Shown: one piece after another, positions 349 through 19,762 of the stretch
How the letters are laid out: each line of letters opens with the position of its first letter
Position numbering within the stretch: the first letter of the stretch is position 1
From: Coriobacteriia bacterium
GTDB taxonomy: Bacteria > Actinomycetota > Coriobacteriia > Anaerosomatales > PALSA-660
NCBI GenBank assembly: GCA_025361885.1
Contig: JANYJF010000032.1
Span: 1 to 57,252 of the forward strand
DNA length: 57,252 nt
Direction of reading: 5' to 3'
Notes under the pieces: generated by a model
Database searches by the model: none
What the model was told of the DNA's origin: nothing
What the model saw: the letters and a program-made list of their open reading frames with translations, nothing else
Translations under genes and position numbers: made by a program

Positions 349-1020
349 TCAGGTCACGTCGGCGGGCGGCTCCGTCGGCTGCGACTCGAATGTGCCGGTG
401 AGCAGGTACTGGATGCGCTCCCCGATGTCCACGGCGTGGTCCGCGATGCGCTCGAGGTAGCGCGAAGCCATGACCATCGACGTCGCCCACTCGATCTCCT
501 CTTCGTCTTGCAGACGCGCGAGCTCGCGGAAGAACTGCTTGTAGAGGTGGTCGATCGGCTCGTCGAGCTCCTCGAGCTTGCGGGCGAGCTCGAGGTCGTA
601 GGTGTCGAGTGCCTCGAGGCATGCCTCCAGCACACGATGCACGAGGTTGCCCTGCGCCTGGATCAGGTCGCTCAGAGTCTGCGGCCCTCTGCGGTCAGCG
701 GTTCGCTTCGCGGACTTCGCGATGTTGACGGCGAGGTCGCCCATGCGCTCCATGTGCATGCCGATGTACGCCATCGAGTGAAGAAGGCGCAGGTCCCGGG
801 CCACGGGGAACTGCGTGGCGATGACCTCGAGCGAATGCTCCTCCACGGCCAGAGTCCGGCGGTCGATCTCGTCGTCGCCCGCGATCACGCGGTCCGCAAG
901 ATCGACGTCGCCGGTGACGAGTGCGGCCACCGAATCGGTGGTACGGTCCACGATGACCCGCCCGATGCTGAGCACCTCGGCCTTCATGTCCTTCAGTTCC
1001 TGCCGGAAGCTCTCACGCAT
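349..1020 (-). CDS. phoU: Phosphate signalling/transport regulator PhoU
   Basis: Cytoplasmic negative regulator that couples the PstSCAB phosphate importer to the PhoR-type sensor kinase. The 223-residue protein is all helical with two PhoU repeats; the metal-binding-type segments (MHMERMGDLAVNIA in the first half, YLERIADHAVDIGERI in the second) are clear. I chose the ATG at 1020 because AAGGGG lies about 11 nt upstream and the product then begins MRESFRQEL, as PhoU proteins do. An upstream in-frame ATG at 1074 would add 18 residues of atypical sequence. It is the distal gene of pstS-pstC-pstA-pstB-phoU. The 153-nt gap to pstB is unusually long for this operon. Confidence 0.95.
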   Translation of the reverse strand: MRESFRQELKDMKAEVLSIGRVIVDRTTDSVAALVTGDVDLADRVIAGDDEIDRRTLAVEEHSLEVIATQFPVARDLRLLHSMAYIGMHMERMGDLAVNIAKSAKRTADRRGPQTLSDLIQAQGNLVHRVLEACLEALDTYDLELARKLEELDEPIDHLYKQFFRELARLQDEEEIEWATSMVMASRYLERIADHAVDIGERIQYLLTGTFESQPTEPPADVT

Positions 1021-1090
1021 CGCGCTGACACCCCTTCGAGACTCGATCATCGCACCGCCGCGCACAGTCAGCACGCCGGTTCATCGTGAC

Positions 1091-1096
1091 AGTATA
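1091..1096 (-). promoter_or_regulatory. Possible -10 element upstream of phoU
   Basis: TATACT on the minus strand within the 153-nt pstB-phoU gap. No convincing -35 hexamer sits 16-18 nt upstream. The same gap has GC-rich complementary blocks (GGGGCCC near 1108 and GGGCCCC near 1160). It may allow separate phoU expression; this is weak evidence. Confidence 0.25.
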
Positions 1097-1173
1097 CCTG
1101 CCCCGATGGGGCCCGGGTTGCACGGGGGTTGAACGCTCCCAAGCCCGGGACGAAGCGCTGGGCCCCTGTGTGT

Positions 1174-1998
1174 CTATCCGAACCGGCCGGTGATGTAGTC
1201 CTCTGTCCGCCGGTCCCGCGGGCTGGTGAAGATGGAGGCCGTGCGGTCGTACTCGATGAGGTGCGCGGGCTCCCCTGCCACCTCCTGCAAGAAGAACGCC
1301 GTGTAGTCACTCACGCGAGCGGCCTGCTGCATGTTGTGCGTGACGATGACGATGGTGATGCGGTCTTTGAGCTCGGCCATCAGATCCTCGACCTTCTGGA
1401 CCGACGTCGGGTCGATGGCGGAGCACGGTTCGTCCATCAGCAGGACCTCGGGCTCGACCGCCAGGACCCTCGCGATGCACAGCCGTTGCTGCTGCCCCCC
1501 CGAGAGGGTCAGACCGCCACGGCCCATGATGTCCTTGACTTCCTTCCACACGTTCGCGCGCTTGAGCGACGCCTCGACGATCTCGTCGAGCTCCGCCTTC
1601 TTGCGGACCCCGTGGAGTCTCGGTCCGTATGCCACGTTGTCATAGATGGACATCGGGAAAGGGTTCGGCTGCTGGAAGATCATACCTACGCGGCGGCGCA
1701 GGTCGACCGGGTCGACGCCCGGTGCGTACACGTCGTTGCCGTCGAGTAGCACCCTTCCCTCGTTGCGGGTGCCGGGGATCAGGTCGTTCATCCGATTCAG
1801 GCAGCGCAGGAAGGTCGACTTGCCACAGCCCGACGGCCCGATGAAGGCCGTGACCGCGTTCTCTTTGATGCCGACCGTGATGTCGGTGAGCGCGTTGAAG
1901 TCCCCGTAGAAGAAATCGAGCTTCTGCACGGAGAACTTGTTCGCGTGGTTGTCGGTGGGGATGACCCCTGTCATGTGCGAGGCGAGCGTGTCGCTCAT
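1174..1998 (-). CDS. pstB: Phosphate ABC transporter ATP-binding protein PstB
   Basis: ATPase that powers high-affinity phosphate import with PstA and PstC at the inner face of the membrane. The product is 274 residues with Walker [10 protein letters not shown] at about 54-62, a Q-loop region ([13 protein letters not shown], characteristic of PstB), the signature LSGGQQQRL, Walker B VLLMDEP and the switch histidine in IVTHNMQQ. The ATG at 1998 overlaps the pstA stop by four bases (ATGA), arguing for translational coupling and for this start. The reading frame stays open far upstream through pstA and pstC, but that extension is a shadow frame. Confidence 0.96.
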
Positions 1999-2843
1999 CC
2001 CAGCATCCTCCTGTTCCTGCTGACGATGTATCGCGCGGTGAGGTTGAAGGCCAGGACCATGAGCACCAGCAGCAACGCAGTGCCGAAGGCCGCGGGCAGG
2101 TTGATGCCCTCCTGGGCGAGGAGCAGCAGGTGCACCGGCATCGTACGGCCGGGCTGCGTCGGGAGGATGGGCGCGTTGATCATGGTGCCCATCGTGTAGA
2201 TGACGACGGCGGTCTCGCCGGCCGCACGTCCGGCTGCCAGGATCACGCCGGTGATGATGCGGGGCGTCGCGGACGGCAGGACGATCCGGGAGACCGTCTG
2301 CCACTTGCTGGCGCCCAGGCCGTACGAACCCCAGCGTATGTACTTGGGAACGGCGCGGATCGCCTCCTCGGTGGTGCGCATGATGATCGGCAGGAGCAGG
2401 AACGCGAGCGCGAGCGCCGCAGCCATGACGGAGAAGCCCATCCCCATGCCTTCGACGAACGCGGCCAGACCGAACAGACCCATGACGATCGACGGCACCG
2501 AGGCCAGCGAGTCGGCTGCGAACCGGATGATCTGCACCAGCCGCCCCTGCACCGCGTACTCGGCAAGGTACACTGCGGCGAGCACGGCCACCGGTGTCGT
2601 GATGAGCATCGCCAGGATCGTCACGTACAGCGTCGCTTGGATGGTCGGCCAGATGCCGCCCTCCATGTTCACGCCGTGCGGCCAGCTGAATATGAACGCG
2701 GGTGTCAACTGACCGATGCCGTTGACGATCACGTAGAGCAGGATCGTCCCGAGAGCCCCTACGGTCGCGATCGCGGCGAGCCAGATCACGCCGAGCGCTA
2801 TCCGGTTCGTCGTCGTCTTGTTGACGCGTTCGCGCGACTGCAT
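1995..2843 (-). CDS. pstA: Phosphate ABC transporter permease PstA
   Basis: Inner-membrane permease half of the PstSCAB importer. The 282-residue protein has about six transmembrane helices and the MetI-type permease core. The EAA-like loop ([25 protein letters not shown]) contacts the PstB ATPase; [15 protein letters not shown] is the conserved PstA segment that follows it. It starts right after the pstC stop and its end overlaps the pstB start. Expression presumably rises on phosphate starvation as in other pst operons, but I could not recognise a Pho box. Confidence 0.95.
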
Positions 2844-3815
2844 CTATCCCACCTCCTTGCCGAAGCGGGAGATGATCCGGATCGTCGCTACGAAGATCAT
2901 CGAGATCACGAACAGGATGATGGCCACTCCGAACAGCGCGGTGCGATGGTCGCCCGCGGCGTACGGCATGTCCATCACGATCACCGTGGTCAGGGTCAGG
3001 AACGGCGCGAAGATGCCGTTTGGGATGACGGGCGCGTTGCCCGCCACCATCACGACCGCCATCGTCTCGCCGATAGCGCGTCCCATGCCGAGGATGATGG
3101 CATCGATGATGCCGATCTTGGCCGCCGGCAGCAGCACGCGCCAGATGGTCTGCCACTTGGTGGCACCCATCGCGTAGCTGGCCTCTCGGATGCCCTCCGG
3201 CACCGAGCGCAGCGCGTCCTCGGAGATCGCCGCGATGGTCGGCAGGATCATGACCGCGAGGATGATCCACACGGTGAACAGTCCGAAGCCCAGCCCGCCC
3301 GAGAACTTCGCGATGATCGGGCGAAGCAGGACCAGACCAAAGAAGCCGTACACGACCGATGGGATGCCCGCAAGCAACTCGACGGCCGGCCGCACCAGGT
3401 CGCGGATCCTGGGGTTCGCAACCTCGGAGAGGAAGACCGCCGTGCCGATCGCCAGTGGCGCGCCCAGTGCAAGGGCACCCAGCGTAGCGAGCATGGAGTT
3501 CACGATGAGGGTCAGGATCCCGAAATCGCCCTTGGTAGGATGCCACACGTACCCACCAAGGAAGTTGAACAGCCCGACCTTCGCGAAGATGGGCCAGCCT
3601 CGCCACCCAACGAACAGGAAGATAAGGGCAACGCCCGCGACCGCGACGCACGCGCATACCAGGAACAGGTTCTGGAGAGCCGCCTCCTTGAAGTACGTGG
3701 CGCGCGAGATGGTCGACAGCCCGCTGCCGGCTGATGGGGCCGCATCCGCGTTCGGACGTCCCGACCCTTCGCTCAATCGGACAGCACGATCATCGGGCTT
3801 CGGGTCCAGAGTCAC
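2844..3815 (-). CDS. pstC: Phosphate ABC transporter permease PstC
   Basis: Second membrane subunit of the phosphate importer. It has 323 residues, about six transmembrane segments after an N-terminal cytoplasmic stretch of roughly 45 residues, and the MetI-like domain with the EAA loop ([25 protein letters not shown]), then [16 protein letters not shown]. It abuts pstS upstream (pstS stop at 3817, a two-base overlap region) and pstA downstream with no gap, so the four pst genes are one transcription unit. Confidence 0.95.
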
Positions 3816-3816
3816 G

Positions 3817-4656
3817 TCACTTCCTCCCTTCGGCTACAGGGAGGAACCCCGCGTCACGGACGACCTTGCTCTGGACTGCGGACGACAGCACGAAGTCCAC
3901 GTACTGCTTCGCCAGGCCCGAGGGCTTGCCCTTCGTGAAGAAGTGCAGCACCCGCGAGACCGGGTAGGTGCCGTCCGCGACAGTCTTCTCGGTCGGCTGG
4001 ATGCCGTCGATGGAGACCGCCTTGACCGACTTGTCGACGAAGCCGAGCGAGATGTAGCCCACAGAGGTCGCGCTGTCCGCGACGACGGAGCGGACCTGTC
4101 CGGTACCCGGCAGCACGGCCGACTTCGGATCGAACGGCGCCCCGCCAAGGACGATCTTGGAGAACGCCTCGCGGGTACCGGAAGCCTCGTCGCGGTTCAC
4201 GAGCCAGATGAGCTGATCCGATCCGCCGACGTCCTTCCAGTTGGTGATCTTGCCTTCAAAGATATCGGCGGCCTGCTTCGTGGTGAGGGCTCGGACGGGA
4301 TTGGACGGGTTCACTATGACCGCGATGGCGTCGAAGGCGATGGGCGTGTCGACCAGTCCGAGCGACTTCTCCTCCGGCTTGAGATCGCGCGAGGAGGTAC
4401 CGATGTCGCTGGTTCCCTTGGTGACCGATTCGATGCCCGCGGAGGATCCGACGCCGGCTACGAGCACGCGCAGGTCCGCGTGCTGCTCGTGGAACATCTC
4501 AGCGGCCACTTCCGCGATAGGCAGGATGGTGGTCGATCCGGTGACGGTCAGCTCGGTCTTGGCCGCTCCCGCCCGCGACGAGCAGCCAGAGACGAGCATC
4601 GCGGGAAGCACGACGGCGAGCACCAGGACACGAGCGGCGGAGCGGCGAAGGCTCAT
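3817..4656 (-). CDS. pstS: Phosphate-binding lipoprotein PstS
   Basis: Extracellular lipid-anchored phosphate-binding protein that feeds PstCA. The 279 residues begin with a basic, hydrophobic signal ending in the lipobox LVSGC, with the lipidated cysteine at 25. Phosphate-binding signatures follow: TVTGSTTILPI near the N-terminus, ASGTREAFSK in the middle (the Ser-Gly-Thr loop) and GYISLGFVDKSV. I chose the ATG at 4656 because it overlaps the pgeF stop as ATGA; an ATG three codons upstream (4665) is the alternative. Translation coupled to pgeF is unusual for a pst operon. Confidence 0.94.
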   Translation of the reverse strand: MSLRRSAARVLVLAVVLPAMLVSGCSSRAGAAKTELTVTGSTTILPIAEVAAEMFHEQHADLRVLVAGVGSSAGIESVTKGTSDIGTSSRDLKPEEKSLGLVDTPIAFDAIAVIVNPSNPVRALTTKQAADIFEGKITNWKDVGGSDQLIWLVNRDEASGTREAFSKIVLGGAPFDPKSAVLPGTGQVRSVVADSATSVGYISLGFVDKSVKAVSIDGIQPTEKTVADGTYPVSRVLHFFTKGKPSGLAKQYVDFVLSSAVQSKVVRDAGFLPVAEGRK

Positions 4657-5504
4657 CGGCCCCATCCGAGGACGGCCGCCAAGGCGCCGTGGCGCCCGGT
4701 GACACCTTCGGCTCGGAACGAGAAGTACGAGTCGGTGTTCTCGGCCGTGCAGATGTCGGCCACGAACACGCTATCCCTGGGCAATCCGACCTCGCTAAGT
4801 GTCTGGGACACGACAGCTCCGAGGTCCAACCGGTCCCGGGGCGGTGCAATCGTATCAGCGGCGTTTGGGAATTGCGACACGAATAACGACCGGAGGTCCT
4901 CGCCTACCGGGTAGTGGCATGGTCCGATCCGCGGTCCGACGTAGGCGACCAAGTCCGAGGGCTCGCAGCCCGCGCGGCGTGCGAGGAGTACCGCTGCCGA
5001 GGCGGGCAGCCGGCCCAGCGCACCCTTCCATCCTGCATGGACCACGGCAACGGCTCGGACCGGCCTGATGGCCACGATGATGACCGGCACGCAGTCAGCG
5101 AAGCACAGGAGCAGCGGCGTGTCCGGCTCAGCGGTGATCAACGCATCGGTCTCGGGCAGCGGCGGAGCCTCGCCGAGGCGCGCGAACGCGCCCATGCCGG
5201 CCGATGCGCCCGCGACCTCCCGCGTGCGCAGCCCGTGCACCTGCTCCGCCATCGTGAGGCGGGACCTGAGCGGTTCGATATCGAGTGCCTCCAGCAGCGT
5301 AGAGCGGTTGTCGTCCACGCTGGACGCGTCGTCGCCCACGTGCGACGCAAGGTTCAGCGACGAATAGGGGGCGCTGCTTCGTCCCCCCGTGCGCTGCGTG
5401 AACGCGATCAGAATGCCCCACGACGCGCGCAACTCGGGGTCCATCAGGGCCCTCACGCCCGCGCGCGTGAGGGCCTCGAGGTTCGGAGTGTGCTGAGCGG
5501 GCAT
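4653..5504 (-). CDS. pgeF: Purine nucleoside phosphorylase / laccase-domain protein (YfiH, PgeF)
   Basis: Member of the YfiH/YlmD family (formerly called polyphenol oxidase), known for a zinc site with purine nucleoside phosphorylase or deaminase activity, and in E. coli as the peptidoglycan-editing factor PgeF. The 283 residues contain the zinc ligands in QVHG (His90), FADCVP (Cys138) and VHAGWKG (His156), plus the family motif YSSLNLASHVGDD. The start is uncertain: ATG at 5504 or 5531, neither with a strong ribosome site. The gene normally lies between ftsZ and yggS; here the pst genes follow it, and the pstS start overlaps its stop. Confidence 0.92.
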   Translation of the reverse strand: MPAQHTPNLEALTRAGVRALMDPELRASWGILIAFTQRTGGRSSAPYSSLNLASHVGDDASSVDDNRSTLLEALDIEPLRSRLTMAEQVHGLRTREVAGASAGMGAFARLGEAPPLPETDALITAEPDTPLLLCFADCVPVIIVAIRPVRAVAVVHAGWKGALGRLPASAAVLLARRAGCEPSDLVAYVGPRIGPCHYPVGEDLRSLFVSQFPNAADTIAPPRDRLDLGAVVSQTLSEVGLPRDSVFVADICTAENTDSYFSFRAEGVTGRHGALAAVLGWGR

Positions 5505-5582
5505 GGCTGTTCCCGTCGGCCGTCGCGGCATCCGCCCGGATACATCTGGCGCGAACGTGTCGGTTCGGTGACACTTATCGTA

Positions 5583-5611
5583 CAGGGTACGCGCCGCTCG
5601 CGCGGCACCTG
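5583..5611. other. Small inverted repeat in a divergent intergenic region
   Basis: Between pgeF (minus) and the plus-strand gene at 5655 there is a nested inverted repeat: GCCGC (5593-5597), loop TCGC, GCGGC (5602-5606), flanked by CAGGGT and ACCTG. It could be a transcript leader structure for either gene or an operator. No clear promoter hexamers were found here. Confidence 0.3.
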
Positions 5612-5654
5612 TGGGGTAGGAACCATATGGCTGCTGCCGGGAGGGGGTGCATCA

Positions 5655-6206
5655 ATGAAGCGGTCATTGAGGTTTTTCGGTTCGCTCGCCACGTTCGGCA
5701 CGGTCCTCGCGGTCGCGGCTCCGGCGTACGCGGCGGACTACAGCTCATCTGGAAGTGATCCCGCCGCCGGCGGGATCGTGTGCGGCACCTGGTTGTGCAT
5801 AGGCTTCTTCTCGCTGATCGGCCTCGCTCTGTTCATCCTGTGGGTGTGGATGACGATCGATGCCTTCGGGCGCCAGGAGTACGAGTTTCCCAACAGTACG
5901 GGGAACAGCAAGAACACATGGATCATCCTGATGCTCGCGGTGGGGCTTCTGCTCCAGGCCTGGGGCGTCATGGCGCTGATCTACTACTTCATGGTGTTCA
6001 GGAAGATCAAGCGCGGCACGGTCGCTCCGCAGTGGGCGGGCAGCGCCCCCACGGCGCCTCAGGCGCCGACCTACGCGCCGCCCGCACCACCGGTACCGAC
6101 CTACGCGCCGCCCGCACCACCGGTACCGACCTACGCACCGCCCGCACCTCCGGCGCCGCCGGCGCCGCCTGCGCCTCCGACCGATCCTGGTCAGCCGCCC
6201 GCGTAG
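5655..6206 (+). CDS. Small membrane protein with PLD-nuclease N-terminal-like (PLDc_N) helices and a proline-rich repeat tail
   Basis: Function unknown. The 183-residue product has a Sec-type signal ending AYA-AD around residue 26, then two hydrophobic helices (about 40-65 and 85-108). The pattern resembles the PLDc_N module found at the start of cardiolipin synthases and in short stand-alone proteins: WVWMTIDAFGR, then NTWIILMLAVG, then YYFMVFRK. The last 50 residues are Pro/Ala-rich and include three copies of PTYAPPAPPV. The ATG at 5655 has an excellent GGGAGGGGG about 7 nt upstream. It is the only plus-strand gene in the left 24 kb, lying alone between ftsZ and pgeF, and ends at a strong terminator. 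Confidence 0.85.
   Translation: MKRSLRFFGSLATFGTVLAVAAPAYAADYSSSGSDPAAGGIVCGTWLCIGFFSLIGLALFILWVWMTIDAFGRQEYEFPNSTGNSKNTWIILMLAVGLLLQAWGVMALIYYFMVFRKIKRGTVAPQWAGSAPTAPQAPTYAPPAPPVPTYAPPAPPVPTYAPPAPPAPPAPPAPPTDPGQPPA
6066..6155 (+). repeat. 30-bp tandem repeat, three units, coding for PTYAPPAPPV
   Basis: Three head-to-tail 30-bp units at 6066-6095, 6096-6125 and 6126-6155, each starting CCGACCTACGC. The first two are identical and the third differs at a few positions. The units are in frame with the gene at 5655 and give a repeated decapeptide, a typical site of copy-number variation. Confidence 0.95.
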
Positions 6207-6375: not shown

Positions 6376-7461
6376 CTACCTGCGGCGCAGGAACGCAGGG
6401 ATGTCGAGCTCGTCCTCAGGCATGGGCTCGAACGTCGGGACCGATGAGGCGCCGACGAGCGACTGCACTGACTGGTCCCCGCCGAACTCCATCGACTGTT
6501 GCTGCTTGCGGCGACCCTCGAAGCCGGTCGCGATCACAGTCACACGGATCTGGTCCATCATCGAGTCGTCGATGACGGCACCGAAGATGATGTTCGCCTC
6601 GGGATGCGCGGCAGCGGCGACGACTTCGGCCGCCTCGTTGACCTCGAACAGACCCAAGTCGCTCCCGCCCGCGATGGAGAGGAGCACCCCCTGCGCGCCC
6701 TCGATCGAGGACTCGAGCAGCGGGCTTGAGATCGCGGCTTTGGCGGCGTCGTGCGCGCGGTTGTCGCCGCTCGCGATACCGATGCCCATCAGTGCGCTGC
6801 CGGCGTCCGCCATGATCGTACGGACGTCCGCGAAGTCCAGGTTGATCAGGCCCGGCACCGTGATCAGGTCCGTGATGCCCTGGGTGCCCTGGCGCAGGAC
6901 GTCGTCGGCGATCCGGAAGGCGTCAAGGATCGACGTCTTCTTCTCGGCTACCTGCAACAGACGGTCGTTCGGGATGATGATGAGTGTGTCGACGACCTCT
7001 CGCAGGCGCTTGATGCCCTCGTCCGCCTGCAGGGCCCGCTTGCGGCCTTCGAACGCGAACGGGCGGGTCACGACGCCGACTGTCAGCGCGCCGATCTCCT
7101 CCTTCGCGATCTGGGCGATCACGGGCGCCGCGCCGGTGCCGGTGCCGCCGCCCTCGCCCGCGGTTATGAAGACCATGTCAGCGCCTTGGAGCGCCTCCTT
7201 GATCTCGGCACGGTTCTCTTCGGCAGCCTGAAGACCGACGTCAGGGTCCGCGCCGGCACCCAGTCCCTTGGTCAGCCCCACTCCTACGTGGACCTTGTAG
7301 TCCGCATCCGACATCAGCAGTGCCTGTGCATCGGTGTTGACGGCGATGAACTCGACGCCCTTGACGCCGGCCTCCACCATGCGGTTCACCGCGTTCGAAC
7401 CGCCACCTCCGATACCGATCACCTTGATGACGGCCAGGTAGTTCGCTCCGGTCTCCAACAT
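6376..7461 (-). CDS. ftsZ: Cell division protein FtsZ
   Basis: Tubulin-like GTPase that polymerises into the Z ring. It has 361 residues. The GTP-binding signature GGGTGTG is at 104-110, preceded by [10 protein letters not shown]. The T7 catalytic region and a short variable linker follow. The C-terminal peptide [12 protein letters not shown] (about 350-361) is the type that binds SepF or FtsA. The ATG at 7461 is preceded by GGGAGGGGACAG, a good ribosome site, so a start nine codons upstream is unlikely. It follows the L,D-transpeptidase gene, from which a hairpin and an AT-rich leader separate it, so it may also have its own promoter. Confidence 0.98.
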
Positions 7462-7530
7462 CTGTCCCCTCCCGCTTCCGGGAATCATCTACGTCTAAGG
7501 CTCTACTTGAGGGTTAGCCTACCAGCAGAA

Positions 7531-7557
7531 CACTAAATGTTTGCATAAAGGTTAGTG
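7531..7557 (-). promoter_or_regulatory. AT-rich palindromic element in the ftsZ leader
   Basis: CACTAA (7531-7536) and TTAGTG (7552-7557) form perfect outer arms, with ATG/CAT-like inner complementarity, in a patch much richer in A+T than its surroundings. A TTGACC -35-like hexamer is at 7561-7566 on the minus strand, but no good -10 was found at the right distance. It could be an operator or part of an ftsZ promoter. Confidence 0.35.
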
Positions 7558-7605
7558 CCAGGTCAAGAGCTGATCCAAGGGAATTCTCGCGGTGTGTCCA
7601 AACCA

Positions 7606-7632
7606 AGAGGCCGGGCGCATGGCCCGGCCTCT
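7606..7632 (-). terminator. Hairpin after the L,D-transpeptidase gene
   Basis: An 11-bp perfect stem (AGAGGCCGGGC and its complement) with a 5-nt loop, followed on the minus strand by a moderately T-rich tail. It lies between the L,D-transpeptidase stop and the ftsZ start and probably reduces read-through from the upstream wall genes. Confidence 0.7.
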
Positions 7633-7665: not shown

Positions 7666-8703
7666 TCAGCGGCGCGTTTCCACCGGCGTGCCGACCGGTA
7701 CCTGCGGCCACAGGTCGAGCACATCCCAGTTATACATCCTGATACACCCGTGCGAGGCCATGGTCCCGATCACCCACGGCTGATTGGTGCCATGAATGAG
7801 GTAGCCCGTTGACTGCCACCGACCCGGACGGCCCCTCCTCGACGACCTCATGCGGAACAGACGCATCTTGCGTGGCCCGTAGATGCCACCGGGATCGCTG
7901 GTGTACTTGGCCCCCATCTTCCAGGTGCCGACGGGAGTGATGTTCCGCTTGCCGTGCGCGACCGGGTACGTCTTGACCATCTGATAGTCCACGATCCAGT
8001 GGAGCTGGTAGGTGCCCTTCTCGACCACGATCATCGTCGGGTACGGCGTGTCGATGCGGCGGAACCCGTACGAGTACGAGCCGGTCTCACCAATAGGATT
8101 GGCGACCGTGACCGTGTACACCGTCCACCCCGCGGTGTTGCTCCTCAGACCGAACGACATGGACGTGCCGGGAGTGCTCGCGCTGGTCCCCATCCACACC
8201 CCGTTGATAGCGATCGTGACCTTGGTGGTCGAAGCCCCTGCCAACACGACCACGTTCGTGAGGTTGGATACCGCGGGACCCGACGGCGACAGCAGCTCCG
8301 GCGGCCCAGGTACTCCCCATGATTGGAGCGTTGCGACCGGCGCTGAGACGTCCGTCCCCGCGTACTGTCCGGACCCGTGGACGACAGCGGAGATGACATG
8401 CCTCCCCGCAACGACCGGGATCCCTGCGAACACCGACTGCGTGTCGGGGCTCACCGCGCGAGTTGCCGCAACCGAACCGTCGACGAGCAGATCCAGCGTC
8501 CCGCCCGGATCCGTCGCTGAGAGAGTGACCGTCGCTGTCAACGATCGGGCGGTATCGGTGGGGACGGTCACGGACAACGCCGACGCCGGTGATGCCGAGG
8601 CGACCCAGGCGACCCCGGCGACTGCGACGATGGCCACCATCCTGCAAAGAGCCTTGCGTGTGATATCCCCTGAGGACCCTGCCCAGCCATGTCTGCGAAC
8701 CAT
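7666..8703 (-). CDS. L,D-transpeptidase with Ig-like N-terminal region (YkuD family)
   Basis: Secreted wall enzyme predicted to form 3-3 (L,D) peptidoglycan cross-links or attach proteins. The 345 residues start with a long signal (hydrophobic core about 20-38, ending ASPASA), continue with about 190 residues of beta-rich Ig-like sequence, and end with a YkuD domain. That domain carries HGTNQ and SHGCIRM, with the catalytic cysteine near residue 320. The ATG at 8703 follows AGAGGGGGA closely; an in-frame ATG at 8724 is possible. The gene starts next to the ftsQ stop, so it should be transcribed with the division cluster, in the place where ftsA lies in many bacteria. Confidence 0.93.
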   Translation of the reverse strand: MVRRHGWAGSSGDITRKALCRMVAIVAVAGVAWVASASPASALSVTVPTDTARSLTATVTLSATDPGGTLDLLVDGSVAATRAVSPDTQSVFAGIPVVAGRHVISAVVHGSGQYAGTDVSAPVATLQSWGVPGPPELLSPSGPAVSNLTNVVVLAGASTTKVTIAINGVWMGTSASTPGTSMSFGLRSNTAGWTVYTVTVANPIGETGSYSYGFRRIDTPYPTMIVVEKGTYQLHWIVDYQMVKTYPVAHGKRNITPVGTWKMGAKYTSDPGGIYGPRKMRLFRMRSSRRGRPGRWQSTGYLIHGTNQPWVIGTMASHGCIRMYNWDVLDLWPQVPVGTPVETRR

Positions 8704-8753
8704 CACTCCCCCTCTAGCCGTCATGTCCCGTTCGGACCAGGACGCGAAGACGC

Positions 8754-9737
8754 CTACTTCCCCAGGCCCCGCCACGTCGGGCGGTCGGTCGTCCTCACGT
8801 CGATCGACACGACTCTACCACGCTGGTCAGCCAGTATCTTGCGCACTATGGCATCCTTCTTCACGGCGCCCGCGGCGTCACCGAAGACGATCTCGACCTT
8901 GTCCGCGGTGTAGAGGGTCGTGGCATCGATCTCGGACGCGGACACGGCCAGGACCTGTGCTCGCAGATCCGCGGAGATGGAGACGAGGACTTTGACCGCG
9001 TTGAGCAAGGGCTCGGATGTCGTCCTTCGTCCGGCCTTCAGGTCGAGCCCCTTCACCTCGCGGATCAGCGGAGTCACGCCGGCCGTCGGAGGAGCGGATC
9101 CGGTGGCCGCAGCCGACCTCTCGGCGATAACGAATCCGTTCGCGTCGATCAACCACTTCTTCGCCCCTGCGTCGACGATTGCGACGGCCCGGCGCTCCAC
9201 CAAACGGATCCGCAAAGCGTCGGGGAAGACACGTGTTACCGCGACGGACTCGACGCGCGGGTCACGTGCGACCCGGACCGTGACCGCCTCCCCCGGGAAG
9301 CGTATGAGCGTCGCGTCCGCCGGTACGGCGGCGAGCCGCACGACCTCTTCGCGTGACATGCTCTCGGCCCCCACGACCTCGACCCGCTTGATCGAGAATA
9401 GCGGAGAGCGATAGATGCCGATCATGGAACCCACGACCGCCAGGACCGAAAGCACGATGACCGCGATCCTGATCTGTCCGTGCCGGCGCTGATCGGCCAG
9501 CCGGCGCTCCCGCTCTGAGCGCTTCGCCATGGCGATACCATCGCCGGCTCGTGGCTTGGACGCCGGCTTGGCTTTGTGCCCGCGCTCGGATGGAACCCGG
9601 CCGGCCACTCTGCGAGAGACCGCGGCCGGCTCGCTCGAGACGCGGTGTCGGTCGCGTTCGCCGCTGGATATGTGGACCGGCTTACCTCGATCAGAAGGTT
9701 CCGAGGAAGCGGATCTCCGGCCTGAGCTCGACGCCAT
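8754..9737 (-). CDS. ftsQ: Cell division protein FtsQ/DivIB
   Basis: Bitopic divisome protein that links FtsB/FtsL to FtsI/FtsW. The 327 residues consist of a long basic cytoplasmic tail (about 1-88), one transmembrane helix (about 90-110), a POTRA domain (starting SIKRVEVVGAESMSREEVV) and the beta domain. The long tail is common in actinobacterial FtsQ. The ATG at 9737 is preceded by AGGGA with a 7-nt spacing and overlaps the end of murB by 47 nt; starting at the internal Met70 would remove most of the tail. Confidence 0.93.
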   Translation of the reverse strand: MASSSGRRSASSEPSDRGKPVHISSGERDRHRVSSEPAAVSRRVAGRVPSERGHKAKPASKPRAGDGIAMAKRSERERRLADQRRHGQIRIAVIVLSVLAVVGSMIGIYRSPLFSIKRVEVVGAESMSREEVVRLAAVPADATLIRFPGEAVTVRVARDPRVESVAVTRVFPDALRIRLVERRAVAIVDAGAKKWLIDANGFVIAERSAAATGSAPPTAGVTPLIREVKGLDLKAGRRTTSEPLLNAVKVLVSISADLRAQVLAVSASEIDATTLYTADKVEIVFGDAAGAVKKDAIVRKILADQRGRVVSIDVRTTDRPTWRGLGK

Positions 9738-10599
9738 GCGTGTCCCTGACTGTCATCTGTAGCTTGCGAATGAGTCCCGCGATGTCGGCGGCCGTGGCAC
9801 CGCCGTCGTTGACGATGAAGTTCGCGTGCACCGTCGAGACAGCTGCGCCGCCGAGTCGCATGCCCTTGCATCCAGCAGCCTCGATGAGACGGCCCGCCGA
9901 GTCACCCTCGGGATTGACGAACACGCTGCCGGCACTCGGTAGACCGAGCGGTTGGCTCGCTTTGCGCGCCCTGAGGTTCCGCTCCATCTCGGCGCGGATC
10001 CTCAGGGGGTCGCCCTCGGTCACCCGAAGGACTCCCTCGACGATGATACCGCGACGGACGAGGCCGCTGGTGCGATATCCCCACTCGATCGCGGCCCCTT
10101 TGACGAGCGACAACCCGCTTCCCGGAACGAACAACGTCACGGACTCCACGATCTGTCCGATCCAGCCCTCGCGTGTCCCGGCGTTCATGGCCAGCGCGCC
10201 CCCCAGCGTACCCGGGATCCCAACGCCCCAGGTCATGCCGGCGACGCCCTCGTGGAAGGTCTGCTGGACGAGGAATGCGAGGATCGTACCCGCCCCGGCG
10301 CGCAGGGTCCCGTCTGCGATCTCATGGTGTTTGAAGTCACGGCCCAGCACGAGCACCGCGCCGTCGTAGCCTGCATCGGCGACCAGGAGATTCGATCCCT
10401 TGCCGACCACCGTGTACGAAACGTCCTCCTCGAGCAGGACGTCGGTCGCCAGCGACAGGTCCGCGATGGTGTCAGCCACGACCCAGAGTGCCGCGGGCCC
10501 GCCGACGCGGTACGTCGTATGGCGGGACATCGGCTCACCGGAATGCACTTCTCCGGAAAGGGAACCGGCGAGGCGCGCCCGCGCCCGCTCTAGAGACAT
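9691..10599 (-). CDS. murB: UDP-N-acetylenolpyruvoylglucosamine reductase MurB
   Basis: FAD enzyme that reduces UDP-GlcNAc-enolpyruvate to UDP-MurNAc in the cytoplasm. The 302 residues include the FAD-binding N-terminal part (TTYRVGGPA, GKGSNLLVAD, GIPGTLGGALAMNAG) and the C-terminal MurB domain with the catalytic serine in PSAGSVFVNP and the closing ELRPEIRFLG. Its start overlaps the murC end and its end overlaps the ftsQ start. Placement of murB with murC and ftsQ is common in Gram-positive and actinobacterial division clusters. Confidence 0.96.
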   Translation of the reverse strand: MSLERARARLAGSLSGEVHSGEPMSRHTTYRVGGPAALWVVADTIADLSLATDVLLEEDVSYTVVGKGSNLLVADAGYDGAVLVLGRDFKHHEIADGTLRAGAGTILAFLVQQTFHEGVAGMTWGVGIPGTLGGALAMNAGTREGWIGQIVESVTLFVPGSGLSLVKGAAIEWGYRTSGLVRRGIIVEGVLRVTEGDPLRIRAEMERNLRARKASQPLGLPSAGSVFVNPEGDSAGRLIEAAGCKGMRLGGAAVSTVHANFIVNDGGATAADIAGLIRKLQMTVRDTHGVELRPEIRFLGTF

Positions 10600-11990
10600 T
10601 CCGGGGAGCCCCCGCTCTGCGAGCGCTCGGTCAGTGCACGGACGATCTCGGGTCCCATCGACGTCACGTCGCCCGCGCCCATCGTCATGACCATGTCGCC
10701 GGAGCGAAGGCGCGTCGCCAGGTATCCGCCGATGTCGGCACGATGTGGGAAGTACGCGAGCGACGTATGCGCGTCATGCGTGAGGACCGCGTCGACGAGC
10801 GTGTGACCGGAAACGCCGGGAACCGGGGTCTCGCCTGCACTGTAGACGTCCATCAGCACCACGCGGTCGGCGTCGTCGAAGGCGCCACCGAAGTCCCGGG
10901 CGAGAGCAGCGGTGCGCGAGTAGCGATGCGGCTGGAAAAGCACCCATACGCGCCCTCTTGTCGCGCTCCGGGCGGCTGCCAGCGTGGCCTTGACCTCCGT
11001 CGGATGGTGCGCGTAGTCGTCGACGACCCACACGCCTTCCACGTTCGCCACAGTCTCGAAGCGGCGCTTCACACCGCCGAAACCCGCGATGCCGGCGACT
11101 GCGGCCTCCGGGTCGTAGCCGAGCGCCCAAGCGCATGCCAGCACCGCCGTAGCGTTGACGACGTTGTGCACACCGGGGGAGGCGACGAAGCAGGGAACGA
11201 CACGCCCGTCGGGGAACGAGACTTGGAACTCGTGACCGATGCCCTGTGGCTCAAGCTCGAAGCAGCGGACCTGCGCGTCGCGGGACAGGCCATAGCTCAC
11301 CAGGCGAGCCGGGCAGCTGGCCGCGAGGGCCATCGCCCGGTCGTCGTCAGCGCACGCGACCAGCGCGCCATCGTGGTGAACGCGTCCCACGAACTCGCGG
11401 AAGGTCTCGACGACCTCCTCGATGCCCGAATAGTGGTCCAGGTGATCAGCCTCGACGTTCGTCACGATCGCCACGAACGGGTCGAGGTGGACGAACGACC
11501 CGTCGGACTCGTCGGCCTCCACCACGTACAGGTCACCGGAGCCGCAACGCGCGTTGGAGCCGGCGTCCCGGACCTCCCCGCCCACAAGGAACGTGGGATC
11601 AAGACCCATCGCGATGAACGTCGTGGCCGCGAGGGAGCTGGTCGTCGTCTTGCCGTGGGTCCCGGCGACAGCGATGGTCCTCCGGTCACCGGCCAGGGCG
11701 GCAAGCATCCGGGCGCGCTGCCACACCGGTATGCCGCGACGCCGAGCTTCCACGACCTCTGGATTGTCGTCGGGGATCGCGGAGGAGACCACGACTATCT
11801 CCGGGTCTCCGAGGTTGGCGGCGTCGTGTCCGATCGAGACCCTCACGCCTTCCTCGACCAACGCGGATGCGTAGCGCGACATCTTCATGTCCGAGCCGGT
11901 CACCCCGAGGCCCCTGTCGTGCAGGACCTTTGCGATGCCGCTCATGCCGGCGCCGCCGACACCTACGAAGTGCGCGTGGACGCGGCTCAC
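10590..11990 (-). CDS. murC: UDP-N-acetylmuramate--L-alanine ligase MurC
   Basis: Adds the first amino acid, L-alanine, to UDP-MurNAc. The 466 residues show the three Mur ligase domains: a Rossmann-like N-terminus (FVGVGGAGMSGIA), the ATP-binding GTHGKTTT at about 110-117, and the C-terminal domain with DDYAHHPTEV. It starts with GTG at 11990, overlapping the murG stop (GTGA), so the two are translationally coupled. Confidence 0.97.
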   Translation of the reverse strand: MSRVHAHFVGVGGAGMSGIAKVLHDRGLGVTGSDMKMSRYASALVEEGVRVSIGHDAANLGDPEIVVVSSAIPDDNPEVVEARRRGIPVWQRARMLAALAGDRRTIAVAGTHGKTTTSSLAATTFIAMGLDPTFLVGGEVRDAGSNARCGSGDLYVVEADESDGSFVHLDPFVAIVTNVEADHLDHYSGIEEVVETFREFVGRVHHDGALVACADDDRAMALAASCPARLVSYGLSRDAQVRCFELEPQGIGHEFQVSFPDGRVVPCFVASPGVHNVVNATAVLACAWALGYDPEAAVAGIAGFGGVKRRFETVANVEGVWVVDDYAHHPTEVKATLAAARSATRGRVWVLFQPHRYSRTAALARDFGGAFDDADRVVLMDVYSAGETPVPGVSGHTLVDAVLTHDAHTSLAYFPHRADIGGYLATRLRSGDMVMTMGAGDVTSMGPEIVRALTERSQSGGSPECL

Positions 11991-13288
11991 GACGCGCTCT
12001 CCTGTTCGGTCGTCGGCCCGACCATCACCGCGCCGTCACCCGGCGCATCACCGCCGGACGCATCGGCGCCCCGAGACACCGTCTCCATGGGGAGTGGAGC
12101 CTTCTTGGGGGCCTTCTCAGCCTTAGCCTGAGCCTTGGCCTGCGCGGCGGCGACCTGGGCGCAGACGTCGGTGTTGCGGCCGGAGCGGCATGCTGTCTCC
12201 ATCGCCACCTCCACCAGCTCCTCGGCCGCCGTCGGACGCCCCAACATCGAGGACGCGCACGCCATCGCACGAAGACGAGCGGGATCGCCCAGCAGCCGGA
12301 ACAGCTCATCGCCGAACATCGGCTTGCCCAAGTCAGCATCGGTGACGCGCCAGGCGGCTCCCGCATCCACCATGGACCTCGCGTTGAGGGTTTGATGATC
12401 GCCGGTCGCGAACGGGTACGGGACGAGCAATGCTGGCCGGCCCAGGACCGTGAGCTCAGCGATGGTCGTGGCTCCGGCGCGGCACACCACAAGGTCGGCG
12501 GCCGCGAGAGCATCGCCCATGTTCTCAACGTAGTCGAGAACGCGATACCATTTCGGCTCCTTGCCGCCCGCCGCCTCCTTGAGCGACGCGCGAACCTGCT
12601 CGGCCTCGGAAGGTCCGGCGATATGAAGGACCCTCAGGTCGGGGACAGCCTTCAACCTTTGGTAGAGGTCTATCATCCCACCGTTGAGATGACGCGCGCC
12701 CCTACTCCCGCCGAAGACCAGGAGGACGAGGTCCTTCCCGCGTAGCTTGAAAGCACGGCGGCCGGCGTCACGGCTCGCAAGTGGGACGTCACAGCGAACG
12801 GGGTTGCCTGTCACCACGGCCCTTGTCGGATACGCGAGATACCCGATGGACTCGGGGTACGTGACACATACGGCCTGGGCCCACCGCGACAGCACGCGGT
12901 TCGCGAGACCGGGCACCGAATTCTGCTCGTGCAGCACCAGCGGCACACCGGCGAACGCCGCCGCTGCTCCCAGGGGCAGCGAGACGTAGCCGCCGAAGCC
13001 GACCACGACATCTGCCTTGTAGCGCCACAGCAGGCCCAGCGCTCTCAAGAAGGACGCCAAGATCGTGAATGACGACGTGACCAGCGTCGACGGCTTGGCG
13101 CGGTCGTATCCTTTGGCTGGGAGCCCGTGGAACTCGAAGCCCGCTTGCGGGACCAATCGCGACTCAAGCCCCGCGGGGGTGCCCACGAATGCGACCGCGT
13201 TATGCTCGTCGCCCGCGAGTAGAGACGCCACCGTCAACGCGGGATAGATGTGGCCGGCCGTCCCTCCGCCGCTCACCAGTACGCGCAC
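11987..13288 (-). CDS. murG: Undecaprenyl-PP-MurNAc-pentapeptide GlcNAc transferase MurG, with C-terminal extension
   Basis: Peripheral membrane glycosyltransferase that converts lipid I to lipid II. GGGTAGHIYPA follows the start directly; FGGYVSLP, HEQNSVPG, FGGSRGARHLN and the UDP-GlcNAc site RAGATTIAEL are present. I chose the GTG at 13288 because GGGAG lies 5 nt upstream and the product then begins VRVLVSGGG, matching family starts. An ATG at 13300 is the alternative. After the normal end (about EELVEVAME) there are about 60 extra residues, first Ala/Lys-rich and then Gly/Asp-rich. The 5-prime end overlaps the ftsW 3-prime end by 89 nt. Confidence 0.95.
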   Translation of the reverse strand: MRVLVSGGGTAGHIYPALTVASLLAGDEHNAVAFVGTPAGLESRLVPQAGFEFHGLPAKGYDRAKPSTLVTSSFTILASFLRALGLLWRYKADVVVGFGGYVSLPLGAAAAFAGVPLVLHEQNSVPGLANRVLSRWAQAVCVTYPESIGYLAYPTRAVVTGNPVRCDVPLASRDAGRRAFKLRGKDLVLLVFGGSRGARHLNGGMIDLYQRLKAVPDLRVLHIAGPSEAEQVRASLKEAAGGKEPKWYRVLDYVENMGDALAAADLVVCRAGATTIAELTVLGRPALLVPYPFATGDHQTLNARSMVDAGAAWRVTDADLGKPMFGDELFRLLGDPARLRAMACASSMLGRPTAAEELVEVAMETACRSGRNTDVCAQVAAAQAKAQAKAEKAPKKAPLPMETVSRGADASGGDAPGDGAVMVGPTTEQESAS

Positions 13289-14441
13289 GCTCGCTCCCAT
13301 CTGCTGAGGACACGCGCGCGGGGATGCCACGCGCGAGGACTAGACCGTGACTGGACACCGAGAGTATAAGGCCCACCCCGGCAAGGGTGAACAACAACGA
13401 CGTGCCTCCGTAACTCACAAGCGGCAGCGGGAGCCCGGTGATAGGCATCAACTGCGTGGCGGCGGCCATGTTGATGACCGCCTGCGCAACGATCAGCGTC
13501 GTCAGCCCCCCGGCGACGAGCTTCCCCAGAAGATCACGAGAGCCAAGCGCGATTCGGAAGCCTGCGACTGTGAAAGCCCCGAAAGCGATGACGACGCTGA
13601 GCGTACCCCACAATCCGAGCTCTTCGCCGATGATCGAGAAGATGAAGTCGGTCTGGGCCTCGGGCAGGTAGAAGTACTTCTGAGCGGACATGCCCAGCCC
13701 GGCGCCCTTCCAGCCACCGGATCCGAACGCGAGAAGCGACTGGATGGTGTGGTAGCCGGTGCCCTGCGGATCCGCCCACGGGTTGACGAACGACAGCAGC
13801 CTCGCGACGCGGTAGGGCTCCATGACAGTCAGCGCCAGTGCTCCTACGGCCGCCGCTGCGGCCATCATCGCGATGTATCGCCACTCGACCCCGCCGAGGA
13901 TGAGCACGGCCCCGACACCCAGGGTCGTCGTCATCGCGGTACCCATGTCGCGCTGCAACAAGACCAGGAGCAACACGGGCCCGACGGCAGCCAGAAAACG
14001 CCCAAGGTCAGGCATCCTGCGGTCGCGTCCCCCGGTCCGATCCGCGACGAGGGCCGCGACCGCGAACACAAGGATGAGCTTCGCCAACTCCGAGGGCTGG
14101 AACGATATCCCACCGATGTCGAACCAGCTCCTGGCACCGTTGCGGGTCACGCCGGCGAACATCACGGCGACCAGGGCGGTGTCCGCGAAGATCAGCCCCA
14201 TCCAGTACAGGCGCTTCCAGAAGTGATAGTCCACGCGCGACGCGAGCCCTAGGACCGCGAGTCCGGCCAGCAGGGCGAGCGCCTGTCTCTTGATGTGGTA
14301 GGCGCTGTCGTGGTAGCGGAGGAAGTCCGGGCCCGACGACGCTGAGAAGACCATGACAAGCCCCAGGAGCACGAGGAACACCACGGACCCCAGGAGCACG
14401 TAGCGGGCGGTCGTGCCGCCCGCATGCTTCTCCCCGCTCAC
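13200..14441 (-). CDS. ftsW: Lipid II polymerase/septal SEDS protein FtsW
   Basis: Multi-pass SEDS glycosyltransferase working with FtsI in septal peptidoglycan synthesis. About ten transmembrane helices are visible in 413 residues, with the hallmark GGISFQPSELAKL, the conserved GTGYHTIQSLLAFGSGG and the C-terminal PLPLVSYGGTSL. The GTG at 14441 overlaps the murD stop (GTGA) and has GGGAG 6 nt upstream, so I prefer it to the GTG/ATG-type starts further upstream. The basic C-terminal tail is read in the region shared with murG. Confidence 0.96.
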   Translation of the reverse strand: MSGEKHAGGTTARYVLLGSVVFLVLLGLVMVFSASSGPDFLRYHDSAYHIKRQALALLAGLAVLGLASRVDYHFWKRLYWMGLIFADTALVAVMFAGVTRNGARSWFDIGGISFQPSELAKLILVFAVAALVADRTGGRDRRMPDLGRFLAAVGPVLLLVLLQRDMGTAMTTTLGVGAVLILGGVEWRYIAMMAAAAAVGALALTVMEPYRVARLLSFVNPWADPQGTGYHTIQSLLAFGSGGWKGAGLGMSAQKYFYLPEAQTDFIFSIIGEELGLWGTLSVVIAFGAFTVAGFRIALGSRDLLGKLVAGGLTTLIVAQAVINMAAATQLMPITGLPLPLVSYGGTSLLFTLAGVGLILSVSSHGLVLARGIPARVSSADGSERARTGERRRDGRPHLSRVDGGVSTRGRRA

Positions 14442-15841
14442 GTCCCACTCCCGCGAGGCATCTCGTGCACCATGCGCTTGAACTCGCATCCGCGGTGACC
14501 GTACGAGCGGAATTCATCGAATGACGCGTTGGCGGGCGACAGCAGGACCACATCACCGGGAACAGCGATCCGAGTGGCCGCCATCACAGCCTGCGACATC
14601 GTCGGGACCTCCACTGTGGTCATGGACAGTCCCGAGAACGCCTCGTGCAACTCGGGCAGGCACTCGCCGAACAGAACGGCGGCCTTGGCACGCGCTGCCA
14701 CAGCACGGGCCAGGGGGCCGAGATCGTTGTGCTTGTTGCGCCCGCCGAGCAGAACGATCAGCGGCTCGTCACAGAAGGCCGTGAGCGCCTTGAGCACCGC
14801 GTCGGGGTTCGTCGCCTTCGAGTCGTTGACGAATCGCACTCCCCCCACCTCCCCGGCCGGCTCCAGCCGGTGCTCCACGGGCTCGAACGAGGTGAGGCCG
14901 CGCCGGACTGCGTCGCTGCCAGCGCCCAACGCCAGCGCGGCGGTCGCGGCGGCGAGCGCGTTGCTCACGTTGTGGTCGCCGCGGATCCGCAGCTCCCCAG
15001 GCGCCACGAGCGCCACCGGACCGTCCGGTCTCTCGACCGTCAGGACGCCGTCGACGACGGACGCACCTCCTGGACGCAGCGCGACGCGGCTCACGCGGGC
15101 GACCGTCGCGCCCGTGGCCTCGGCCGCGCCCACCTTGGCGGCGGAGCCAGGATCGTCGATATCGATGATCACCGTGTCGCCCGGTCCCATGTTCGCGAAG
15201 ACCTTCGCCTTGTCGGCGCCGTACGCTTCACGACTGCCGTGCCAATCCAGGTGGTCGGGCGTGATGTTGAGCAGCACCGCGACCTTGGGGCGGAAACGGT
15301 CGGTCAGCGCCAACTGGAAGGACGACACCTCCGCCACCAGCACGGCACGCTCGGGAGCCGAGGCCGCCGCTTCGACGACAGACGTCTCCCCGATGTTGCC
15401 GCAGACACGGGCGTCGATCCCCCCGCCACGCAGCAGGTGCGCGAGGAGTGCCGTGACCGTCGTCTTCCCGTTGGTGCCGGTCACGGCGGCGATCGGAGCG
15501 CACGCGATCAGCCAACCAAGCTCCACCTCGGAGATCACCGAAGCCCCTGTCGCCTTCGCGGAGAGCATCACCGCCGCGTGCGGAGGGATACCGGGACTCG
15601 CCACGACCAGGTCCCAGGGACCGTCCGGGACACCCGTGACGCCCAGGAACACGTCGGCCCCCTCGTCGCGAAGGTCCCGAGCCCGGCTCGCAAGCGAGGC
15701 ATCTTCCGACCCGCCGCGCTCGTCGACGACCGTCACGAGCACGCCTTCGCCGGAAGATGCGCGGCTGAGTTCGTATCGGGCCGCGGCCATGCCGGACATC
15801 CCGAGGCCGAGCACCAGTATCCGCTGGAGACCCTCGCCCAT
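14438..15841 (-). CDS. murD: UDP-N-acetylmuramoyl-L-alanine--D-glutamate ligase MurD
   Basis: Adds D-glutamate to UDP-MurNAc-L-Ala. The 467 residues carry the N-terminal LGLGMSGMA, ATP-binding GTNGKTTVTALL at about 122-133, the NITPDHLDWHGS segment and the C-terminal FVNDSKATNPDA motif typical of MurD. It starts just after mraY (6-nt gap) and its stop overlaps the ftsW start. Confidence 0.97.
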   Translation of the reverse strand: MGEGLQRILVLGLGMSGMAAARYELSRASSGEGVLVTVVDERGGSEDASLASRARDLRDEGADVFLGVTGVPDGPWDLVVASPGIPPHAAVMLSAKATGASVISEVELGWLIACAPIAAVTGTNGKTTVTALLAHLLRGGGIDARVCGNIGETSVVEAAASAPERAVLVAEVSSFQLALTDRFRPKVAVLLNITPDHLDWHGSREAYGADKAKVFANMGPGDTVIIDIDDPGSAAKVGAAEATGATVARVSRVALRPGGASVVDGVLTVERPDGPVALVAPGELRIRGDHNVSNALAAATAALALGAGSDAVRRGLTSFEPVEHRLEPAGEVGGVRFVNDSKATNPDAVLKALTAFCDEPLIVLLGGRNKHNDLGPLARAVAARAKAAVLFGECLPELHEAFSGLSMTTVEVPTMSQAVMAATRIAVPGDVVLLSPANASFDEFRSYGHRGCEFKRMVHEMPRGSGT

Positions 15842-15847
15842 AGCCGG

Positions 15848-16906
15848 TTACCGCCGGAACGAGTTGATGAAGAACGCAGCAAAACCGGCTCCGGCCAGAA
15901 TACCGGTCACGATCCAGAAACGGACCATCACCTTGGTCTCGGACCACCCCTTCATCTCGAAGTGGTGGTGGAGTGGCGCCATGCGGAAGATCCGCTTGCC
16001 GGTCAGCTTGAAGGACGCCACCTGCAGGATCACCGAGAGCCCTTCGGCCACGTAGATGCCGCCTATGATCGGCAGGAGCAGCTCGGACTTGGTGAGGATG
16101 GCGAGCGCGGCGATGGCCGCACCCAGACCCAGTGAGCCCGTGTCGCCCATGAAGATGTCCGCCGGGAAACTGTTGTACCAAAGGAAGCCCAGGCACGCCC
16201 CCGCCACGGCGCCGGCGTACAACGCGAGTTGCAGGTGGTTCTGCCGGAACGCGATAGCCGCGTAGGCCAGCACCACGATCATGACTGTGCCGGCCGCCAG
16301 GCCGTCGAGCCCGTCCGTGAGGTTCACGGTGTTCGATGTGCTGATGATCATGGTGAAGATGAGGCCGAGGTACAGCCACGGGATGACGATCGCCGATCCA
16401 CCGAGATGCAGCGTGGTCGTCAGGATCCCGAGGTCGAGGTACCGCGAGGTCAACGGGATGACGACCTTGGACCCGACGCCCGCCCAGTTCACCGCCAACA
16501 TCCCGAACGCACCCGCGATAAGGAACTGCCACAGGATCTTGGCACGAGGACGCAGACCCAGCGATCGCGCCTTGAGAACCTTCGAGTAGTCATCCACGAA
16601 GCCCAAGATGCCGCACGACAGCATGACTCCCACGGCCAGGATCGCGGCCCTGTCGAAGCGGCCCATCGCAAAGAAGACCGCAGTGATGACGAGCAGGATC
16701 AGGACGCCGCCCATCGTGGGCGTACCCTGCTTGACCAAGTGACCCTGCGGGCCGTCGGCGCGCACCTGCTGTCCGATGTTGCGGAAGCGCACCAAGCGTA
16801 TCCAGAACGGGAACAGCGCCCCCGCTGCGACCATCGCGACGATGACGGCCAGGAACACCTGGTAGGTCGGATACCTGCTGATGTCGAGCGGCAGAAGGTT
16901 AGGCAT
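15848..16906 (-). CDS. mraY: Phospho-N-acetylmuramoyl-pentapeptide transferase MraY
   Basis: Ten-helix membrane enzyme that moves phospho-MurNAc-pentapeptide onto undecaprenyl phosphate to give lipid I. The 352 residues include GTPTMGGVLIL, the Asp pair in GFVDDYSKV, NTVNLTDGLDGLAAG, FMGDTGSLGLG and the histidine motif MAPLHHHFEMKGWSE. Its start overlaps the murF end by eight bases. Confidence 0.98.
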   Translation of the reverse strand: MPNLLPLDISRYPTYQVFLAVIVAMVAAGALFPFWIRLVRFRNIGQQVRADGPQGHLVKQGTPTMGGVLILLVITAVFFAMGRFDRAAILAVGVMLSCGILGFVDDYSKVLKARSLGLRPRAKILWQFLIAGAFGMLAVNWAGVGSKVVIPLTSRYLDLGILTTTLHLGGSAIVIPWLYLGLIFTMIISTSNTVNLTDGLDGLAAGTVMIVVLAYAAIAFRQNHLQLALYAGAVAGACLGFLWYNSFPADIFMGDTGSLGLGAAIAALAILTKSELLLPIIGGIYVAEGLSVILQVASFKLTGKRIFRMAPLHHHFEMKGWSETKVMVRFWIVTGILAGAGFAAFFINSFRR

Positions 16907-19756: not shown

Positions 19757-19762
19757 GATTCC

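Follow-up and report, generated by a model that had tools for sequence, protein, structure and literature searches.

Organization of the ftsQ–ftsZ region

The DNA examined (the window) is the 57,252-nt contig JANYJF010000032.1 of a Coriobacteriia genome (order Anaerosomatales, assembly GCA_025361885.1; 1.65 Mb in 70 contigs, completeness 91.6%). On its minus strand, an open reading frame with an ATG at 8703 and a stop codon at 7666–7668 encodes a 345-aa L,D-transpeptidase (LDT), and the gene order along this strand is ftsI murE murF mraY murD ftsW murG murC murB ftsQ LDT ftsZ pgeF pst (Table 1). The LDT gene forms the end of the mur/fts run, 50 nt from the ftsQ stop and about 180 nt ahead of ftsZ; murB and ftsI were named by Pfam and the remaining genes of the upstream run from their sequence and by synteny. 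A sequence-only reading of this DNA had placed a YkuD enzyme with a full SHGCIRM site between ftsQ and ftsZ, and its open reading frame, strand, coordinates and flanking genes were all correct. The GC3 of the LDT gene (0.815) matches that of the neighbouring genes (0.80–0.87), which argues that it is not a recent foreign gene. The same genome contains a single further YkuD gene, at another location.

Table 1. Features of the LDT gene and its surroundings in the window (AF2, AlphaFold2 model).
Feature	Position	Strand	Basis
Upstream run murB, murC, murG, ftsW, murD, mraY, murF, murE, ftsI	9691–21625	-	
ftsQ	8754–9737	-	ORF; POTRA_1 + FtsQ_DivIB_C
Purine-rich ribosome-binding sequence AGAGGGGGAG, immediately 5' of the LDT ATG	8704–8715	-	read directly
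L,D-transpeptidase gene (signal peptide, Ig, Ig, YkuD)	7666–8703	-	ORF, Pfam, alignment, AF2
Predicted signal peptide, residues 1–42	8578–8703	-	AF2 helix 14–35; A-x-A site SPASA/LS
Ig-like domain 1, about residues 43–130	8314–8577	-	Big_3_5, AF2; borders approximate
Ig-like domain 2, about residues 131–217	8053–8313	-	AF2 strands, full-length LdtMt2 alignments; borders approximate
YkuD catalytic domain, residues 218–345	7669–8052	-	Pfam, AF2, structural alignment
Catalytic motif SHGCIRM, Cys320 at 7744–7746	7735–7755	-	read directly
G+C-rich stem-loop just 3' of the LDT stop, terminator-like, poor T tract	7606–7632	-	
Conserved ftsZ upstream block, two FtsR-like 25-bp sites (7529–7553, 7491–7515)	7489–7567	-	motif of PMC6683498
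ftsZ	6376–7488	-	ORF; TIGR00065, 425 bits

The true start of ftsZ is probably the second ATG, at 7461 (within 7459–7488), which is preceded by GGGAGGGGACAG and gives the FtsZ N-terminus found in other loci. Beyond ftsZ, pgeF is followed directly by pstS, pst permease and ATPase genes and a phoU-like gene within the division cluster (349–4665), some of these names being assigned from sequence alone; pstS adjoins pgeF also in L037, L038, L044, L045, L153, L156, L163 and L210. An opposite-strand open reading frame (4914–6206, plus strand) lies between pgeF and ftsZ, and the C-terminal portion of its product resembles a small membrane protein whose tail is a Pro-rich YAPPAPP repeat.

Domains and active site of the LDT

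The sole Pfam domain above cut-off was YkuD (PF03734, residues 223–342; E=3.7e-21, 76.7 bits against a curated cut-off of 23.4). The bacterial Ig-like family Big_3_5 gave a weak match, with E=0.0036 in the window protein; 7 of 12 slot members matched it with E no higher than 5, the best value being 2.2e-6. The AlphaFold2 model, built on an alignment of 12 slot proteins (mean pLDDT 87.5, pTM 0.71), comprises a helix at residues 14–35, two beta-sandwich domains and the YkuD domain. Ala42, which ends the A-x-A site, was invariant in the 12 rows of the slot-protein alignment (A1), as were H304, S317-H-G-C320 and the whole of S317–R322. The thirteenth slot copy (genome G111) reads SAGC and its gene is split over two frames, so this LDT may be decaying or mis-assembled.

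SAGC or SNGC replaces SHGC in ten LDTs (L046, L058, L061, L071, L127, L128, L130, L131, L059 and L129), with the Cys and an upstream HGTN retained where checked by eye. At L143:444–1481 (plus strand, genome G103), the N-terminal part of the protein is Ig-like and aligns with the window LDT at 27–28% identity, but the C-terminal domain is Peptidase_M23 (E=3e-29) in place of YkuD; here a wall hydrolase carries the same front part.

Conservation of the position between ftsQ and ftsZ

We examined if the LDT gene recurs between ftsQ and ftsZ (the slot) in the 69 genomes of the window's order. An FtsZ match was found in 66 of these and the ftsZ upstream region could be read in 65, the 66th genome (G103) being left out because a contig end cuts ftsZ. 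The slot held an LDT gene in the same orientation at 13 of the 65 loci, spread over six families: the window's own family f1 (6/8), f10 (2/2), f15 (2/2), f9 (1/1), f14 (1/1 readable) and f7 (1/4). The slot was LDT-free at the other 52 loci, including two of the eight genomes of f1; the near-universal presence expected within the order for a core divisome component was thus not found. At 51 of these 52 loci the ftsQ–ftsZ distance was 125–300 nt (tblastn coordinates), and in G007 it was 655 nt with a small unrelated open reading frame inside. The slot LDTs aligned in A1 were 37–47% identical to the window protein. In families of the class outside the order, 20 loci were examined and no LDT match lay between ftsQ and ftsZ, these slots being judged mainly by LDT match; ftsQ lay beside ftsZ at 17 of them, ftsZ was away from the cluster in L157 and L158, and ftsQ was unmatched in L160.

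A contig search with the single window protein found no relative, and the same search with alignment A1 gave 64 loci. One of these, L210 (DYIV01000004.1, the sequence of genome G525), is placed in the same phylum as the window and another class; it has ftsQ, LDT and ftsZ in the same order, with FtsZ 78% and LDT 32% identical to those of the window and with a 4-nt overlap between the ftsQ stop and the LDT start. Matches to A1 occurred in 22 of 36 genomes of that class, and among 30 match loci examined there the G525 copy was the only one flanked by FtsZ and FtsQ matches. The MAG carrying L210 is titled Slackia heliotrinireducens FI88_64_8 and is very probably misnamed: its sequence is placed outside the window's class, and in the species tree it is separate from the rows of f18, f19 and f22. 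A block like that upstream of ftsZ is visible in L210 too, at 6982–7148.

The synteny search that the sequence-only reading had proposed bore out the gene position that it had noted: the same slot and orientation recur at 13 of 65 loci and in one genome of another class, which argues against chance or assembly error, and the LDT is a conserved-position member of the mur/fts (dcw) run. Among the titles and abstract openings returned by a literature search there was no account of an LDT in this slot.

That reading had also put the LDT where ftsA commonly lies. This is true here in a formal sense only; the 52 remaining loci of the order have no LDT in the slot, and in the window's genome a true ftsA was not found, its two FtsA-profile matches looking, from their sequences, like PilM and MreB. 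Replacement of ftsA by the LDT was rejected, as relatives without the gene have the slot empty of LDT. SepF gave no match in the window's genome and was present in 64 of the 69 genomes of the order. In G107 SepF lies about 6.4 kb beyond ftsZ, roughly the point at which the window contig runs out; SepF is therefore probably just unassembled here, and its absence as a mark of an unusual divisome was set aside.

Expression and the ftsZ upstream region

LDT starts could be read in 10 of the 13 slot loci and lay between -25 and +72 nt from the ftsQ stop; further possible starts were seen inside ftsQ in L037 and L040. The stem-loop after the window LDT had a folding energy of -31.8 kcal/mol (z -4.66). 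A sigma-70 scan of the stretch gave no promoter-like site, neither for the LDT gene nor for ftsZ.

The conserved ftsZ upstream block is located 3' of the LDT gene and was found before ftsZ with or without an LDT. One part of it, like TAAGGTTTATGCGAAGATTGA, was detected with one strict pattern at 10 of the 13 slot loci and at 49 of the 52 loci without an LDT. The second part, like AACCCTAAAGTAGAGGTTGAG, resembles the FtsR site of C. glutamicum ftsZ, which PMC6683498 gives as AACCCTAAAGTAAAGGTTGAGGGTA. The best identity to this published 25-mer was at least 15/25 at 13 of 13 slot loci and 51 of 52 other loci, against a weak control of 50 mononucleotide shuffles per locus; the window site scored 16/25, and 1 of 50 shuffles was equally good. 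Two such FtsR-like sites stand in tandem upstream of ftsZ across the order (65 loci).

Because this block is kept before ftsZ whether or not an LDT gene precedes it, ftsZ is very probably transcribed from a start of its own; and because ftsZ keeps its own conserved promoter region downstream of the LDT, the LDT gene most likely belongs to the mur–ftsQ transcript. The predicted co-expression of the LDT with wall-precursor and divisome genes, an expectation of the sequence-only reading, is well supported by the short or negative ftsQ–LDT distances, by the 4-nt overlap in L210 and by the place of the conserved ftsZ promoter region after the LDT and not before it. A private LDT promoter is possible.

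Scattered relatives

Matches that lie outside the slot and score 100 bits or more were counted as scattered LDTs. These were found in 41 of the 69 genomes of the order, mostly as CWB2 fusions, and the loci inspected were without matches to other dcw proteins; that LDTs are otherwise scattered genes, as had been claimed, is true within this order. A slot gene was present in 13 genomes, a scattered gene in 41, neither in 15 and both in none. The chance of no overlap under a random draw is about 1e-6, a figure that treats as independent genomes which, within a family, are not; by family there were six with slot genes, eight with scattered genes, two with neither and none mixed. Since slot and scattered LDTs never co-occur, this suggests one gene in two locations.

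Two LDT trees were made. The first had 61 rows, with L143 left out for having no YkuD domain; in it the slot LDTs were not a single clade and the basal branches were unresolved. The second had 59 rows, with L194, L205 and L210 added and with L143, L129 (a 146-aa contig-end fragment), L144, L145, L146, L001 (another, divergent LDT type), L213 and L214 dropped. Here a branch (91/86, not starred) set off the order's slot rows, beside a scattered clade (95/85), with L210 below both. Removal of the contig-end and outlying rows was needed for this slot clade to appear; when they are kept, the slot label needs three changes. L194 (JADIIM010000024.1), titled Aeromicrobium sp., has an LDT within the order's CWB2-type clade and is probably a misnamed MAG. 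In the species tree (quick method, 84 rows), in which L210 is a long branch, slot presence took at least nine changes, six of them forced by starred branches, so that losses or transfers must have been many. We take the LDT gene to be old and to have been lost or moved many times, with transfer possible.

Substrate supply

The MurE of the window carries DNPR, which we take to be a meso-DAP signature. D,D-carboxypeptidases of the S11 family produce the tetrapeptide donors used by LDTs. An S11 enzyme was found in 64 of the 69 genomes of the order and in 10 of the 13 slot genomes; searched for as the S11 family alone, none was found in the window's own genome (about 92% complete), G093 or G147. 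Anaerosomatales are described as thin Gram-positive rods in PMC9686372, whose main text contains neither the word peptidoglycan nor the word diaminopimelic.

Discussion

Mur genes supply precursors for the whole cell wall, and the LDT gene closes an ftsI–mur–ftsQ run. We hold, with a little more confidence than doubt, that its product would be a secreted Ig–Ig–YkuD LDT acting as a growth-coupled housekeeping 3-3 cross-linker that is not septum-specific. The LDT would probably be transcribed and translated together with ftsQ and the precursor genes, presumably from a single transcript, with ftsZ starting anew, just downstream, from an FtsR-type promoter region of its own. The exported enzyme would most likely use tetrapeptide stems supplied by a D,D-carboxypeptidase to form 3-3 (mDAP-mDAP) cross-links in newly made wall, acting at the septum and elsewhere.

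The sequence-only reading had gone further, to 3-3 cross-linking as part of septation in this lineage. This does not follow from the arrangement: the gene is missing at 52 of 65 loci and in two of eight genomes of its own family, so the LDT is evidently dispensable for septation; the genes upstream of it make precursors for the whole wall, and ftsZ is apparently controlled separately. A septum-specific LDT, i.e., a working divisome part whose 3-3 cross-links would be regular in septal wall, gains from the fixed place after ftsQ over six families and another class, and from the slot LDT never co-occurring with the scattered type; but loss of the gene in close relatives, and the service of the mur genes to the whole wall, leave such a role not well supported, and we consider it unlikely.

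An alternative in the opposite direction is that the position means nothing, an ordinary wall or stress LDT having landed behind ftsQ with its own promoter and with no tie to division or growth. In 41 of 69 genomes the same family is found elsewhere, at loci unrelated to this one, so the slot position is not needed for function; yet the overlap with, or short distance from, ftsQ and the persistence over six families exceed what would be expected from neutral landing, and we find this account less credible still than a septal one.

YkuD enzymes are also known for L,D-carboxypeptidase activity, D-amino-acid exchange and the covalent attachment of surface proteins, and the fold might serve one of these reactions here. 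ElsL, an L,D-carboxypeptidase, is among the weak NCBIfam matches, and the window's own genome shows no S11 carboxypeptidase for donor stems; but S11 is found in 10 of 13 slot genomes and in structure the protein is closest to transpeptidases (Z 19.2 for B. subtilis YkuD and about 16–17.5 for mycobacterial LDTs), which makes another reaction very unlikely. That the locus is an assembly or binning artefact is hardly conceivable, for although all slot loci come from fragmented assemblies and the G111 copy is split over two frames, independent genomes already refute it: the arrangement recurs in 13 bins from the order and in one from another class, and the sequences have diverged, those in A1 being 37–47% identical to the window protein.

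The slot clade beside the scattered clade, L210 below both and the mutual exclusion of the two gene locations allow a bolder proposal as well. The slot may be ancestral to at least two classes of Actinomycetota, and the LDT a dedicated partner of FtsQ, FtsW and FtsI, made from the same message for septal 3-3 cross-links, and later lost or replaced by a CWB2-anchored relative in most descendants; we regard this as speculative and improbable. The housekeeping reading remains the one we prefer: we see in the LDT a housekeeping enzyme whose gene occupies an unusual and conserved place in the genome.

A conserved LDT behind ftsQ would provide a natural case of 3-3 cross-linking tied to the genes for precursor and septal synthesis, and it bears on carbapenem action and on how cross-linking is shared between PBP-type and LDT-type enzymes. 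The finding of an FtsQ-linked or a CWB2-anchored LDT, never both, gives a testable claim of one job done from two addresses.

Comparison with known systems

The kind of enzyme is already known, and what is unusual is its conserved genomic context between ftsQ and ftsZ; to our knowledge, the LDTs of other systems are encoded by accessory genes away from the division cluster. The nearest catalytic domain is that of B. subtilis YkuD (PDB 1y7m, 4a1i; Z 19.2, 2.2 Å over 112 residues, 38% identity by VIA-align), which, with others, is also among the nearest sequence relatives in the PDB. The aligned part of B. subtilis YkuD is without Ig domains, whereas the YkuD domain of the window protein comes after two of them, and the window gene sits behind ftsQ, unlike that of B. 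subtilis. The mycobacterial enzymes LdtMt2 and LdtMab2 (PDB 3vyn, 5uwv) share the full-length layout of two Ig-like domains and YkuD, and LdtMt2 chains were the first Foldseek matches of the LDT model (E 3.5e-11), although no LdtMt2 chain was among the sequence matches with E of 1e-3 or below. In their catalytic domain the mycobacterial LDTs rank second to B. subtilis YkuD (about 22% identity, Z about 16–17.5), and the domain orientation of LdtMt2 differs from that of the model (rmsd about 16 Å). The closest relatives are the scattered LDTs of the same order, mostly about 40–48% identical over the shared YkuD and Ig-like part; those examined have CWB2 repeats or other N-terminal domains in front and lie elsewhere in the genome. 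In the dcw cluster of C. glutamicum, as given in PMC6683498, ftsQ is likewise followed by ftsZ with an FtsR-like site upstream of ftsZ, and the window differs in adding the LDT gene between ftsQ and the ftsZ promoter region.
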